Source of the DNA: an uncultured Acidobacteriaceae bacterium
GTDB taxonomy: Bacteria > Acidobacteriota > Terriglobia > Terriglobales > Acidobacteriaceae
Reading direction: 5' to 3'
NCBI GenBank assembly: GCA_903842065.1
Contig: CAIMKZ010000074.1
Span: 62,001 to 126,000 of the forward strand
Length of the DNA stretch: 64,000 nucleotides
This document shows positions 20,767-54,954 of this stretch, in pieces. The position numbers and the translations under genes were made by a program. How positions within the stretch are numbered: the stretch's first letter is position 1; every line of letters begins with the position of its first letter. Under the pieces are notes generated by a model, which was given only the letters and a program-made list of their open reading frames with translations, was not told where the DNA came from and made no database searches.

Positions 20767-21255
20767 TTACTGCACGTTGTCGCAGATGATCCTGACCTCG
20801 AAGTGCTCGCCCTCGAAGTCGTAGATGTGGCGCAGATCGAAGGCCGGAGCCTGCACGTGCAGGTTGTAGTCCCGCCCGCTGATCACCGCCGGCACCGAGA
20901 GCCCGCAGTGCGCAGAAAGCTCCGGCACCTTGCTCTTCCATGACCCGGCCAGCATGTTACATAACTCGCCAAAGCCGTCCTGCACCGTGTCGTCTACCTC
21001 GGCGAACTCCTGGCCGGTGAGCCGGCCGGCCAGCAGCCGCGCCGCCACGCTGTTGCCGCGCAGAATGCAGGCGCCGCTCAGCACCCCGCCAAACCCCACC
21101 ACGGCCGTCACCGATTCAGGAGCCGTAGAGACCGGCCCCGCATCCCGGCTGGCCGTCCCGCCCAGCATCATCGCAAAAACCTCTTCGACACTCGCGTCGA
21201 GATGTACCGGGTCAGCAACTTTTTCTATCGATCCGCGCAAAGATACCGCCGCCAT
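20767..21255 (-). CDS. cheX: CheX-type CheY-P phosphatase
   Basis: A protein of about 162 residues with the CheC/CheX/FliY fold. The catalytic motif E-x2-N occurs in FGELCNMLAGSWKS, preceded by VGFGGVLSGACILRGN. CheX removes phosphate from CheY. The response regulator gene lies directly upstream, which supports this role. The frame extends to 21354, but ATG at 21255 is chosen because AAAGGAG stands 6-7 nt before it and the fold begins right after. A single E-x2-N motif points to CheX rather than CheC, which has two. Confidence 0.8.
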   Translation of the reverse strand: MAAVSLRGSIEKVADPVHLDASVEEVFAMMLGGTASRDAGPVSTAPESVTAVVGFGGVLSGACILRGNSVAARLLAGRLTGQEFAEVDDTVQDGFGELCNMLAGSWKSKVPELSAHCGLSVPAVISGRDYNLHVQAPAFDLRHIYDFEGEHFEVRIICDNVQ

Positions 21256-21382
21256 GCCCACTCCTTTCCGTTTGCCTGCACTGCCGGAGCGCCTTATCGT
21301 GTCACGGCTCCCAACGGCATCCTGCGTGAACTCTTTGGGCCTCGCTCCCCCCACGCTCGGAGACGCGCAAGGCCCCCGCCCC

Positions 21383-21766
21383 TCAGGACCTCGTCACAAG
21401 AGGCAATACCCGCTCCTTGACCTGCTCAGGCGTAAACGGCTTGCGTATATATCCCTGCGCTCCATCCTGAATGGCCTGCTTCACATGCTCCTCGCTCGAT
21501 TCCGTGGTTATCATCACCACCGGAACACCGGGGGCAAGATTCCGGCTGCGCATCTGGCGCAGAAACTCCAGACCATCCATCGACGGCATATTGATGTCCG
21601 ACAGAACCAGATGCACCCGCTTCGTGCTGAGCAGATCCAGCCCCTCTACGCCGTTTCCAGCCTCATACACCGTATCCAGATCGAGATCGGCCTGCCTCAG
21701 AGCACGCTCCACTATCTTCCGCATCACGGAGGAATCATCGACAATCAACACATCTATCCCAGCCAC
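21383..21766 (-). CDS. cheY: CheY-like single-domain response regulator
   Basis: A 127-residue receiver domain with nothing attached. The acidic pair D10-D11 (VLIVDDSSVMRK), the phospho-acceptor D57 (LVLSDINMPSMDG), the Ser/Thr switch in VVMITTES and the conserved Lys in YIRKPFTPEQ are all present. It should bind FliM/FliN of the motor when phosphorylated. It lies between the probable CheX phosphatase and fliN/fliM. No CheA kinase is in this window. Confidence 0.9.
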   Translation of the reverse strand: MAGIDVLIVDDSSVMRKIVERALRQADLDLDTVYEAGNGVEGLDLLSTKRVHLVLSDINMPSMDGLEFLRQMRSRNLAPGVPVVMITTESSEEHVKQAIQDGAQGYIRKPFTPEQVKERVLPLVTRS

Positions 21767-21857: not shown

Positions 21858-22832
21858 TCAGGCTGCCGCTCCGGGGCGCGAGGCGATCGCGCCAACCAGG
21901 TCGCGCACTTCATGTCTGCGCGGCACCGGGCCCGACTGACGCCGTGTCCACATCCTGAGCCAGAGAAAGTCGTGCACTCGCACCAGCCGCGAGTCCACTG
22001 GATGGCGCGACTCGACGGCCTTTGAAAACGCCCGTGCCAGGCCGGACTCCGAGGCCGCTTCCATCAGCTCACAGGGAGGATAGCCGGCCACCAGCGCCTG
22101 CTGCTGGGCGCTGTCAAAACGATCGCCCGCGACCACACCGCTCTCCACCCTCAACCCGTTCATCCGCTCGATAGCCACCGCCACCTGCTGATCGAGCCGA
22201 TTCTCGAAGCCAAGATAGACCAGCCGCCCGCCAGCAACCCGCACCGGAAGCGCCCGCAGCGCATCGACGAAGAGACGGGGCAGCAGCGGCGCCACCGACT
22301 CCGGATCGTGACGGTTCAGATCGAGCACCGGACAGCTCCACTGCAATCCCACGGCACGGGTCACCAGCGACTCGTTCGCCGCTCCGGATCGCACCAGCCA
22401 GTCGCCCAGCCGCCCGCCGCGCGCCTCGCGTTGCATCCCGACGGCCCGGCGCAGCGCGTCCTGCGTAATCCAGCCCTGCTCAAGCATCGCCAGGCCCAGA
22501 GGAATCCGGTGGCGGTAGTCCTCTCCCCCGCCGGATCTGGTTCCAATCTCGCGCCACAGCGCCTCCTCGACCCGGGTCCGGGTGCAGTCTGCCGAACAGC
22601 ACCAGCCACCCTCGAAGATCGGCGCCGAACGGCTGCGCAGAAGCTTGATCCAGCCGCTCGCGCAGTCGGGATTCGCGCAACGCGGAAACAGCTCCCGGCT
22701 TCGCGCAGCAGGCGCTGTGCCCGGTCCGGCTCCAGCCCCGGCAGCAGGCTCTGCGCCAAGCACAAGGACCGCATCGCGAGCCCCGCCGCGCCGAACCGCT
22801 AAACCCGTTTCCATCCCACCTCCACCAGGCAT
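21858..22832 (-). CDS. MshEN-like (GspE N-terminal) protein with Cys motif
   Basis: A protein of about 324 residues with no full-length family I can name. Residues ~30-75 contain a Cys cluster (CANPDCASGW ... GGWCCSADC) that looks like a zinc knuckle. Then come two tandem MshEN-like units, LGLAMLEQGWITQDALRRAVGMQ and RLGDWLVRSGAANESLVTRAVGLQ. In MshE such units bind c-di-GMP. The ATPase domain of GspE/PilB is absent. It sits between fliN and cheY. The ATG at 22832 overlaps the fliN stop as TGATG; ATG at 22844 or 22814 (with GGAGGT before it) are alternatives. Confidence 0.6.
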   Translation of the reverse strand: MPGGGGMETGLAVRRGGARDAVLVLGAEPAAGAGAGPGTAPAARSRELFPRCANPDCASGWIKLLRSRSAPIFEGGWCCSADCTRTRVEEALWREIGTRSGGGEDYRHRIPLGLAMLEQGWITQDALRRAVGMQREARGGRLGDWLVRSGAANESLVTRAVGLQWSCPVLDLNRHDPESVAPLLPRLFVDALRALPVRVAGGRLVYLGFENRLDQQVAVAIERMNGLRVESGVVAGDRFDSAQQQALVAGYPPCELMEAASESGLARAFSKAVESRHPVDSRLVRVHDFLWLRMWTRRQSGPVPRRHEVRDLVGAIASRPGAAA

Positions 22833-23620
22833 CAGAACAGGCATCGAATGCTCTCCAGCCGCTTGCGCGGCGCGGCAACCTCGGTGATTCTGAGGCCGAA
22901 GTTGCCATTCACAAGTACCACTTCTCCCCTCGCGACGATCTTGTCGGCCACGATAAGATCGACCGGATCGGCCACCTGGCGATCCAGCTGCACCACATCG
23001 CCCGGCCCCAGATCGAGAATCTCGCCGAGCGGCAGTTCGCGGGACCCGAAGCGCAGCGAGGCCTCCAGTTCCACGTCCAGCAGCAGTTCGATGCCCGACG
23101 AGAGCGCCACCGGATGGCGCGGGTCCGAGGCCCCGGCCGGCGGCTGCGCCGCGGGAGCCTTTGCGGCCGGAGGCGGAGCCGCGGCAGCGGGCTTCGGTTT
23201 CTCTTCGGCTTCCTTGACCCGGTCGCGCACCAGCACCGTCCAGCTTCGTTCGCCAGCTTTCAGCGCGAAGGCCCGGCTGATCGAGCCGCCCTCGGTGGCC
23301 GGCTCGAAGCGCTCCACCTTGCAGCGCTTGCCGGCCACGGCCAGCATCTCGCCGGCCGCCGCGTCGAAGGTCTCGCGCACGATCTCCCGCCAGGCCTCGG
23401 CCTGGTCCATACCCTCGCCCATCAGAGGCGTGTCCAGCACCGAGCCTTCGAGGATCACCGAGAAGGTCCCCTCGACCTCGCCCGTGACATCGGCACGGTA
23501 GCCGATCGAGGGTCCGGTGACCGGCTTGGGAATTGACTCAATCAGCTCCGGAGAGCCGCTCAGGGCCTGCGAGAAGAGGCTTGAGGCAACTCGCGCCCAG
23601 CAGTCAAGAAAGCTATTCAT
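22832..23620 (-). CDS. fliN: Flagellar motor switch protein FliN, long form
   Basis: A 262-residue protein. The C-terminal ~80 residues form the SpoA/FliN domain (LLLDVELEASLRFGSRELPLGEILDLGPGDVVQLDRQVADPVDLIVADKIVARGEVVLVNGNFGLRI). The N-terminal part resembles the CheC-like region of FliY without a clear E-x2-N, and a Pro/Ala linker joins them. Part of the C-ring that reverses rotation. The ATG overlaps the fliM stop by 4 bp (ATGA). Confidence 0.9.
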   Translation of the reverse strand: MNSFLDCWARVASSLFSQALSGSPELIESIPKPVTGPSIGYRADVTGEVEGTFSVILEGSVLDTPLMGEGMDQAEAWREIVRETFDAAAGEMLAVAGKRCKVERFEPATEGGSISRAFALKAGERSWTVLVRDRVKEAEEKPKPAAAAPPPAAKAPAAQPPAGASDPRHPVALSSGIELLLDVELEASLRFGSRELPLGEILDLGPGDVVQLDRQVADPVDLIVADKIVARGEVVLVNGNFGLRITEVAAPRKRLESIRCLF

Positions 23621-24579
23621 GGCATAACCTCAGGCGTCGAAACTTCCAGCCTTGCGGCGCGATGGGGTCCCAGACGCACCGGGCGGGCCTCAAAGAGAGG
23701 CTCTCCGGCCACGCGCACCTCGGCCAGGGTGTTAGCCGGATGATTCAGGCGCAGCACCATGCCCGGTTTCAGACCTTCGAGATCGGCGGTGCGGACGCTG
23801 ACCGTCGGCAGTTGCAGGGATGTGCCGAAGCGTATCCGCCGGGCCACATCCATCATCTTGCCCCGCGCGTTGCCGCCATGGGAGCGCCGGCCCCAGTCGA
23901 TCGTCATCCGGCGCAGGATGGTGTTGGCCACCACCGCCGGAAAGGCCAGGTTCAACAGGCCCGAGCTGTGCGGCATGCGGATCTCAAAACTCAGGCAGAG
24001 CGTCTTTTCGCTCACCGCCATCAGACGCGCCACCTGGGTCTGCATCTGGCGGCGCTCGAACTCGAAGCTCAGGCCCACCGGCTGCCAGGCCACGGTCAGC
24101 TCCCGGCAGATGATCTCCACCAGGCTGGCCAGAATCGACTCCTCAATATCGGTCAGCTCGCGCAGCGGGCCGTCCTTGCCGTCGCCGCCCAGCAGAAGAT
24201 CGATCACCGGCGGAGCAAGCGCCAGATCCAGCTGCATCACCGAGGCCGCCCCCAGCGGCTCAAGTCGCACCGAGGCAACGTAGCTGATCTCCGGGATTCT
24301 TAGCAAAAACTCATTGAACGGAATCTGCTCGGCCGAGACCAGGTTGACCTGAAACCGCGTACGCAGCCACGCCGCAAGGTTATGGGTCAGGTTGCGCGCG
24401 AACATGTCGTTGAGCATGCTGATAGCCCTCAGCTGCTCGTTCGATATCTGCCCGGCCAGGGAGAAGTTGTAGGGCAGCACACGGGCCCGCACCTCGGTCT
24501 TCTCCGACGACTCGGCGCCCGTTCGCGCTGCCTGAAACAACGCATCGATCTCGTCCTGTTTGAGAGTCTTCTCGTTCAC
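23617..24579 (-). CDS. fliM: Flagellar motor switch protein FliM
   Basis: A 320-residue protein. The N-terminal LKQDEIDALFQAA is the CheY-P-binding peptide (LSQ.EIDALL type). The middle domain starts at YNFSLAGQISNEQLRAISMLNDMFARNLTHNLAAWLR, and the C-terminal SpoA-like domain ends the protein. GTG start at 24579 with GGAG 6 nt before. Overlaps fliN. Binds phosphorylated CheY, encoded three genes downstream. Confidence 0.95.
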   Translation of the reverse strand: MNEKTLKQDEIDALFQAARTGAESSEKTEVRARVLPYNFSLAGQISNEQLRAISMLNDMFARNLTHNLAAWLRTRFQVNLVSAEQIPFNEFLLRIPEISYVASVRLEPLGAASVMQLDLALAPPVIDLLLGGDGKDGPLRELTDIEESILASLVEIICRELTVAWQPVGLSFEFERRQMQTQVARLMAVSEKTLCLSFEIRMPHSSGLLNLAFPAVVANTILRRMTIDWGRRSHGGNARGKMMDVARRIRFGTSLQLPTVSVRTADLEGLKPGMVLRLNHPANTLAEVRVAGEPLFEARPVRLGPHRAARLEVSTPEVMP

Positions 24580-53082: not shown

Positions 53083-54954
53083 TTGCAAGCCTCCACAATC
53101 ACGGCGCGCCAGTGGCGAATGCGTTACCGGGTCTATCTGCGGCCGCTTGGCTGCTTCCTCTCCGTCGGAGCCGCGACGCTGTTCTTCGGATCGCTTGGCA
53201 ACGGACTGATCATCTGGGTCGCCAACGGCATTCTCCTCGCCTACCTGCTTCTGGCGCCACGACGCTTCTGGCCGGCCTATATCATTGCTGCCGTTGTCGC
53301 GCATCTCATTGCATCCGCTCTGCTTCACGTCTCCTGGCAGGTGAATCTCCTCTACACGATGCTCGACACCATCGAGGCGCTCATCGCGGCCGCGCTTCTA
53401 AGGCGTCGTTCCACCGATCTTCCAAACTTCACCAGTCCCTTTTACCTCTTTCGCTTCACCGTCTGCGCCATTGTCGCTGCTCCAGCCATCTCCGCCGCGG
53501 TTGAGGGGCTCGCGGATCTTTTCATCTTCCACCAGGCCTTTCTGCCCTCATTCCAGCATCTCTTTCGCACCGACGCCCTCGGCATCTGCGTCACTACGCC
53601 TGCCTGCGTAGCCCTGTTTCGCACTCGTCTGCGCAAGTTGCTCAGCGATTACTCCAACTGGTTGCGACTGCTTCCCATCTGCGCCCTTTGCGTCGCGGTC
53701 TTTCTGCAGAATGAGCTGCCCGCTCCCATCCTGCTCTTTCCTGTCCTCCTGCTGGTGCTGCTGCGCATGGGCCTCGGCTGGGCCTCACTGCTCACTCTGT
53801 TCGTCACCACTGTAGGAGCTTGGTTCACCAGTCGCGATATCGGACCGTACGCCAATACCCCCGTCAGCAACGCCCTCGGCCCGGATATCCGCCTCCAACT
53901 ATTTGTCACTTCGCTGATGGTCACGATCTACAGCGTTTCGGTCGTCATTGAAAACCTGCGCAACACTGAAAAGCGGCTCCTCTATATCGCAAACCTTCAT
54001 ACCCTGGTGGCGGAGAACTCACGCGACGTGATCATTCTGGAAGATTCTCAGGGCAACCGCACTCTAGTCTCCTCTCCCGATCGATTCTGGAGCGGTTGGT
54101 CGCACGAGGACATTCAGGCCATGGGTAGCCTGGAGAGAATCCATCCGGACGATCGGCTGCGCGTGAGCTCGGCCATCAGCGACCTCCGCGCCGGAGCAGA
54201 CGGTACGTTGATCGAGTACCGTGTAGGAGGACGCGATGGGGCTTTCACCTGGGTTGAGGCCAACCTGCGCACCGTGCGCGACCCGATCTCGCGCAAGCCC
54301 ACCCGACTGCTCAGCAACATCCGCGACATATCCGAGCGCAAGTACGCAGAGCAGCAGCTAGAAGACGCCTTCCACGCCGTCGAGGCACTTGCGGTAACCG
54401 ACGCCCTCACCGGCCTCGCCAACCGCCGCCGATTCGACCAGTACTTATCCGATGAATGGCGCCGTGCCCTGCGCGAGCGGACTCCGCTCGCCATGGTCCT
54501 CATCGACGCCGACCTCTTCAAGGCTTACAACGACACCTACGGCCACCACCAGGGCGATGTCTGCCTACAGGCCATCGCCGGCGCACTCCGCAAAGCGATC
54601 CTGCGCTCCAGCGACCTCGGGTCTCGCATCGGCGGGGAGGAATTCGCCATCCTGCTGCCAAACACCTACGCAGAAGGTGCGCGTCAACTCGCCTACCGCG
54701 TCTGCGAGGAGGTCCGCAACTGCGCCATCGAGCACTCCGGCAGCCCGCATGGCATCGTGACCGTTTCCGCCGGCTATTCCGCCATGGTTCCCTTGCCCGG
54801 ACAGGCTGCTTCCCTGCTCTTCGACACCGCCGATCAGGCCATGTACGCCGCCAAGCACAGCGGCCGAAACTGCGTTCATCCGATCGATGTGCCTGACGCC
54901 ATAAACGAGGATGCCGACGCTGACACCGACGCCTTCCCGTCAATTAATATCTAA
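53083..54954 (+). CDS. MASE1-PAS-GGDEF diguanylate cyclase
   Basis: A 623-residue membrane-bound enzyme that makes c-di-GMP from GTP. The first ~300 residues have about eight helices in a MASE1-like sensor (IIWVANGILLAYLLLAPRRFWPAYIIAAVVAHL, the MASE1 Trp-x-x-x-G-I pattern). A PAS domain follows (~300-430), then GGDEF. The active site is GGEEF at 517-521. The inhibitory site RSSD is at 508-511, exactly five residues before, so feedback inhibition is expected. TTG start at 53083 with AAAGGAGG 4 nt before. It stands alone with a terminator. Confidence 0.92.
   Translation: MQASTITARQWRMRYRVYLRPLGCFLSVGAATLFFGSLGNGLIIWVANGILLAYLLLAPRRFWPAYIIAAVVAHLIASALLHVSWQVNLLYTMLDTIEALIAAALLRRRSTDLPNFTSPFYLFRFTVCAIVAAPAISAAVEGLADLFIFHQAFLPSFQHLFRTDALGICVTTPACVALFRTRLRKLLSDYSNWLRLLPICALCVAVFLQNELPAPILLFPVLLLVLLRMGLGWASLLTLFVTTVGAWFTSRDIGPYANTPVSNALGPDIRLQLFVTSLMVTIYSVSVVIENLRNTEKRLLYIANLHTLVAENSRDVIILEDSQGNRTLVSSPDRFWSGWSHEDIQAMGSLERIHPDDRLRVSSAISDLRAGADGTLIEYRVGGRDGAFTWVEANLRTVRDPISRKPTRLLSNIRDISERKYAEQQLEDAFHAVEALAVTDALTGLANRRRFDQYLSDEWRRALRERTPLAMVLIDADLFKAYNDTYGHHQGDVCLQAIAGALRKAILRSSDLGSRIGGEEFAILLPNTYAEGARQLAYRVCEEVRNCAIEHSGSPHGIVTVSAGYSAMVPLPGQAASLLFDTADQAMYAAKHSGRNCVHPIDVPDAINEDADADTDAFPSINI

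Follow-up and report, generated by a model that had tools for sequence, protein, structure and literature searches.

In the window, a 64,000-nt stretch of an uncultured Acidobacteriaceae genome, we identified a minus-strand gene whose product combines a four-cysteine module, an MshEN domain and a C-terminal region (Table 1). The gene lies between fliN and a cheY-like gene, as an earlier note on this DNA had placed it, in the minus-strand order flhB, flhA, FliA-type sigma gene, fliM, fliN, MshEN gene, cheY, cheX, flgF, flgG, and is part of a long run of structural flagellar genes. The codon use of the open reading frame is coding-like (GC3 0.75 versus GC2 0.56). A chance open reading frame in the shadow of fliN was considered and dropped, given conservation across classes down to ~20% identity and a fixed position, as was a degraded PilB pseudogene, given the strong conservation and the invariant cysteines. 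FliN itself carries ~150 N-terminal residues without a Pfam match ahead of its FliMN_C domain, and similarly long forms occur among other acidobacterial FliN proteins.

The overlap with the end of fliN that the earlier note had reported stands, and amounts to 13 nt; the start it had assumed, at 22832, is only the second in-frame ATG. We place the true start at 22844 because the first ATG and the MPxL or MSxL protein start are conserved in close relatives (once MLVL). Every genus-level locus examined has its start codon (ATG, in one case GTG) at precisely the same place, 13 nt within fliN and preceded by GGAGA(G/C). Among the more distant families within the class, the arrangement of the two genes is a 4-nt overlap or a gap of 10–21 nt. 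Translational coupling of the gene to fliN is inferred from this arrangement.

Table 1. Features of the flagellar locus, of the MshEN protein and of related loci (window coordinates unless a locus is named).
Feature	Position	Strand	Evidence or remark
MshEN gene (328 aa; Cys module, MshEN, C-terminal region)	21858..22844	-	328 codons
fliN (262 aa), partner gene upstream of the MshEN gene	22832..23620	-	PF01052, E 2.9e-22
fliM	23617..24579	-	PF02154, E 1.1e-36
cheY-like response regulator	21383..21766	-	PF00072, E 3e-31
cheX	20767..21354	-	PF13690, E 1.2e-17
13-nt overlap: MshEN gene start codon within fliN 3' end	22832..22844	-	same 13 nt in every genus-level locus checked
GGAGAG ribosome-binding site within fliN	22851..22856	-	sequence; GGAGA(G/C) in every genus-level locus examined
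Variable low-complexity N-terminal tail, aa 1-54	22683..22844	-	pLDDT <40; absent in other classes
Four-cysteine module Cx4C-x21-Cx3C, aa 56-87	22584..22679	-	C56, C61, C83, C87 invariant in family alignments and in 59/59 copies
MshEN motif I (PLGLAMLEQGWITQDALRRAVGMQ), aa 115-138	22431..22502	-	pLDDT 87-93
MshEN motif II (RLGDWLVRSGAANESLVTRAVGLQ), aa 145-168	22341..22412	-	pLDDT 87-93
MshEN_C alpha/beta half, aa 169-250	22095..22340	-	N215 aligns with MshE Asp108
C-terminal region, aa 251-328	21861..22094	-	W295 and R297 invariant; weak likeness to PilB/GspE N2 start
Membrane GGDEF protein, possible c-di-GMP source	53083..54954	+	GGDEF, E 1.1e-47; hydrophobic N-terminal half
MshEN gene copies in second flagellar loci	L070:6025-6924, L071:5989-6855, L072		L070 and L071 complete

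As a single sequence, the protein matches the Pfam family PF05157 (E 0.0015, 18.9 bits) and the NCBIfam c-di-GMP_motif model NF053729 (E 3.9e-8, 33 bits), in both cases under the cut-off (curated 23.1 and 38, respectively); other members of its family match more strongly, to 6e-13 and 2.8e-14. Against solved structures, phmmer retrieved PilF (1.6e-22), MshE (1.2e-8) and also PilB, and a family profile gave PilF 2.4e-56, PilB 4.5e-30, MshE 7.4e-23 and XpsE only 1.2e-5. A Foldseek search with the structural model of residues 106-322 returned 17 matches at E≤0.001, all of the MshEN type, with c-di-GMP-bound PilF-GSPIIB and MshE as the best, and the model fits 5htl_B with a target-normalised TM-score of 0.71. 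In this trimmed model, the MshEN_N half reaches a pLDDT of 87–93 and MshEN_C only 54–77, and the C-terminal region is unresolved; a full-length model from 10 sequences (mean pLDDT 45) gave nothing usable for the cysteine module and the C-terminal region. The MshEN likeness noticed earlier from the sequence alone is thus borne out by profile matches, phmmer and the fold comparison of the model. However, the supposed two tandem MshEN units are a single domain, with a pair of 24-residue motifs in tandem making up its binding half. The linker between these motifs has 6 residues in the window protein and 5 in some homologues (L017, L020, L027), 5 being the length characteristic of MshEN domains. 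Likewise, the N-terminal cysteine motif exists and its four cysteines are invariant in the family, with its form now corrected to Cx4C-x21-Cx3C; the module probably binds zinc. No ATPase core was found with Pfam or NCBIfam; the protein ends at residue 328 and only the MshEN part of PilB is matched. Pfam gave no match to PilZ or to the YcgR N-terminal domain.

In MshE, the key contacts to c-di-GMP are, per motif, the LG pair with the following amide, two leucines and one glutamine, plus Asp108 (PMC5013675). Among the flagellar-locus copies of our family, G117, L131, G147 and Q168 are present in 59/59 and Q138 in 58/59. Mean entropy is 0.39 bits over the ten contact columns and 1.64 bits over the remaining columns of the motifs (permutation p < 5e-5); nowhere in the MshEN domain is conservation in the main flagellar copies stronger than at the contact positions. 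The window protein meets the motif pattern (R/K/L)LGxx..G..xxxxLxxxLxxQ, with both glycines, both glutamines and L131 in place, and deviates at P115 (motif I, position 1), at V135 in motif I and at V161 and V165, where valine occupies two leucine positions of motif II. Proline instead of arginine at the first position of motif I is found in 51/59 copies. This change appears tolerable, because the GSPII-C domain of Thermus PilF, whose sole deviation is a proline at this motif position, binds c-di-GMP with a KD near 0.5 uM (PMC11731258); in addition, mutation of MshE Arg9 altered the affinity no more than ~fivefold (PMC5013675). At the position of MshE Asp108, the window protein has N215, and most relatives have Asp. 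This asparagine, the missing arginine of motif I and the two valines of motif II speak against the reading as a receptor. The nearly invariant D218 was rejected as the Asp108 equivalent, since the alignment pairs Asp108 with N215. The original proposal was to fall if a structural alignment revealed no c-di-GMP residues, and in comparison with solved complexes they are present. Although there are no binding data, c-di-GMP binding is strongly predicted from sequence and model.

We then asked how closely the gene follows fliN, comparing by hand the pairs of fliN and MshEN-protein matches from two tables covering 200 genomes of the class. The full-length protein was found in 53/200 genomes (E < 1e-56), in 53/53 cases directly after fliN, on the same strand and within ~350 nt, and in 0/98 fliN-negative genomes. 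However, 49/102 fliN-positive genomes lack the gene, which is therefore not a general part of the motor. The remaining matches listed (E 1e-20 and weaker) are confined to the MshEN part, most of them in 550–670-codon frames, and those fetched are PilB/GspE-type ATPases. A survey of Acidobacteriota outside the class yielded divergent copies in 14 further genomes, and 9/9 of those fetched belong to flagellar loci, with fliN on one side and flgF or a chemotaxis gene on the other; some of these intervals also contain HDOD and DUF2802-like genes. Across the phylum, 35/36 positive genomes are also fliN-positive, the exception being a fragment at a contig edge. The co-occurrence survey suggested in the earlier note thus came out in its favor, and homologues are not always outside flagellar loci, which would have refuted it: the full-length copies, the divergent copies fetched and the copies in second loci are all flagellar.

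The slot after fliN varies in content. In loci from other acidobacterial classes (L061:4659-6029, L062, L063), fliN and the MshEN gene are separated by an HDOD gene and a small membrane-protein gene of the DUF2802-like type. Flagellated relatives with fliN and no MshEN gene after it are represented by L073, L074, L075 and L076; fliN is followed by an HDOD-like ORF in L073, by a DUF2802-like gene in L075 and by neither in L074.

Our favored reading, held with moderate confidence, is that the protein is a c-di-GMP receptor that is made with the switch complex, acts at the C-ring and serves as the acidobacterial equivalent of YcgR, with another fold. Under this scenario, the receptor would be cytoplasmic and belong to the flagellar switch of Acidobacteria, and would be made together with the C-ring because its translation is coupled to that of fliN, the coupling itself being inferred. 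The MshEN domain is predicted to bind one c-di-GMP between its two 24-residue motifs, and binding would reorient the alpha/beta half. The cysteine module and/or the C-terminal region probably contacts a switch protein, with FliN as the first choice, followed by FliM or CheY, and high c-di-GMP would change motor speed or bias, as YcgR and FlgZ do elsewhere; the protein may in this way tell flagella to stop or change on settling. Gene order alone is the basis for placing its action at the C-ring, and the link to FliN, FliM or CheY, the partner and the direction of the effect are likewise inferences. The earlier suggestion of a c-di-GMP receptor connecting the messenger to the switch is accordingly supported by the contact residues and the fliN linkage, with binding and contact both inferred.

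Linkage to fliN falls short of proof of contact, and export, assembly or expression are other processes on which the gene product might act. FliN belongs to the C-ring, and the C-ring docks the export ATPase complex, so that a c-di-GMP receptor made with FliN might control flagellar assembly or export, for example via FliN-FliH-FliI, rather than rotation. The location of the gene in a long run of structural genes and the usual role of MshEN domains, the regulation of secretion or pilus ATPases, are compatible with this possibility. Furthermore, regulation of the export ATPase FliI by c-di-GMP has been reported (cited in PMC5013675). However, in the genus the gene is found between fliN and cheY/cheX, away from fliH/fliI, and the protein has no ATPase core of its own; we consider control of assembly or export unlikely, albeit a serious contender.

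An additional possibility is that the protein is a structural or adaptor component of the C-ring that uses the MshEN fold for protein contacts and has lost c-di-GMP binding. A precedent exists in XpsE, the MshEN domain of which does not bind c-di-GMP and carries the losses G11V, G40L and Q61V (PMC5013675). Relevant here are three genomes of the same genus in which a further flagellar locus (L070, L071, L072) carries an additional copy of the gene. The copies in L070 and L071 retain the gene position and the four cysteines and lack G147 and Q138, and are predicted to be non-binders because of these losses; the function therefore seems partly independent of the ligand. Together with the Arg-to-Pro change in motif I, these copies lend some weight to an adaptor role. 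In contrast, no other part of the domain comes close to the ligand-contact columns in conservation among the main copies, and the XpsE-type losses are absent from these copies, which makes a purely structural role improbable, although not negligible, for the protein described here. In the two-locus genomes, it may be that only one of the two motors responds to c-di-GMP. A short HDOD gene follows the copy in L070 (Pfam), and similar ORFs follow the copies in L071 and L072. Finally, nucleic-acid binding is common among four-cysteine modules and HDOD genes occupy the same slot in other classes, but a regulator of expression or localisation that acts through the cysteine module on nucleic acid or a polar landmark, merely travelling with the flagellar operon, is very hard to reconcile with the lack of a recognised DNA-binding domain (Pfam) and with the inferred fliN coupling, which would not be expected of a product needed before the motor.

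The genome encodes ~12 GGDEF proteins and five PilZ proteins. The membrane diguanylate cyclase that the earlier note had seen in the window is indeed present, with hydrophobic (MASE1-like), PAS-like and GGDEF parts; its gene lies on the opposite strand, 20 kb beyond the flagellar genes and unlinked to them. In the search for YcgR-type brakes, each of the two N-terminal domains was detected in 1/200 genomes, neither of which is fliN-positive. Motile Acidobacteria have many diguanylate cyclases and no YcgR-type brake, which leaves open the route by which c-di-GMP reaches their motors, and a fliN-tied receptor with an invariant overlap is a testable candidate for it.

With the MshEN/GSPII domains of Vibrio cholerae MshE, Thermus thermophilus PilF-GSPIIB and Escherichia coli NfrB, the protein shares a pair of 24-residue motifs in which LG, L and Q are conserved, and after them an alpha/beta half of the same fold in the model. 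Unlike these proteins, it contains no ATPase or glycosyltransferase, has a four-cysteine module in front and proline for arginine in motif I, and, in the Acidobacteriota surveyed, occurs in full length only in flagellar loci. The proposed role, c-di-GMP input to the motor, is that of the YcgR/FlgZ/PlzD brake; YcgR consists of PilZN and PilZ, whereas our protein has neither and is modelled with the MshEN fold, in agreement with the initial description of a YcgR- or FlgZ-like function in another fold. In Caulobacter, the Cle proteins (PMC5677366) connect c-di-GMP to the motor as effectors that likewise lack PilZ and are thought to act at the switch; their fold is CheY-like (REC) and their sequence unrelated. 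Combinations of MshEN with CheA and CheX domains are mentioned by Wang et al. (PMC5013675), and c-di-GMP input to chemotaxis via MshEN was thereby foreseen in outline. We found no report of MshEN linked to a flagellar switch gene in a literature search that did not extend to subscription papers; within that limit, neither the architecture nor the linkage to fliN seems to have been described, as the earlier note had supposed for the architecture. If the reading as a switch receptor holds, a flagellar role would be assigned to an MshEN protein for the first time, the roles assigned so far being in pili, secretion or polysaccharide, and a pilus-ATPase module would have been reused in a rotary motor.

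The PilB/GspE traffic ATPases share the MshEN domain, and differ in having an ATPase core and a pilus or secretion locus. The C-terminal region of our protein aligns in the right order with the start of the PilB N2 domain and scores 17.3, above the best of 36 decoys (13.4; P 0.014), which hints, weakly and at the level of sequence, that the protein derives from the front part of such an ATPase; identity with the N2 domain is only suggestive, and the main reading does not depend on it. A broader scenario, which we put forward tentatively and consider somewhat less likely than not, is that YcgR is replaced in the phylum by a c-di-GMP-gated C-ring subunit that arose when the N-terminal half of an ATPase of type IV pili or type II secretion was recruited and joined to a zinc module, and that in two-system genomes only one motor is c-di-GMP-sensitive, the second-locus copy having lost the ligand residues. 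The genome has just one other clear MshEN match, a GspE/PilB-like ATPase (L079:205-1842) in which both binding motifs are missing and which, unlike PilB of many related families, begins directly with the MshEN_C half.
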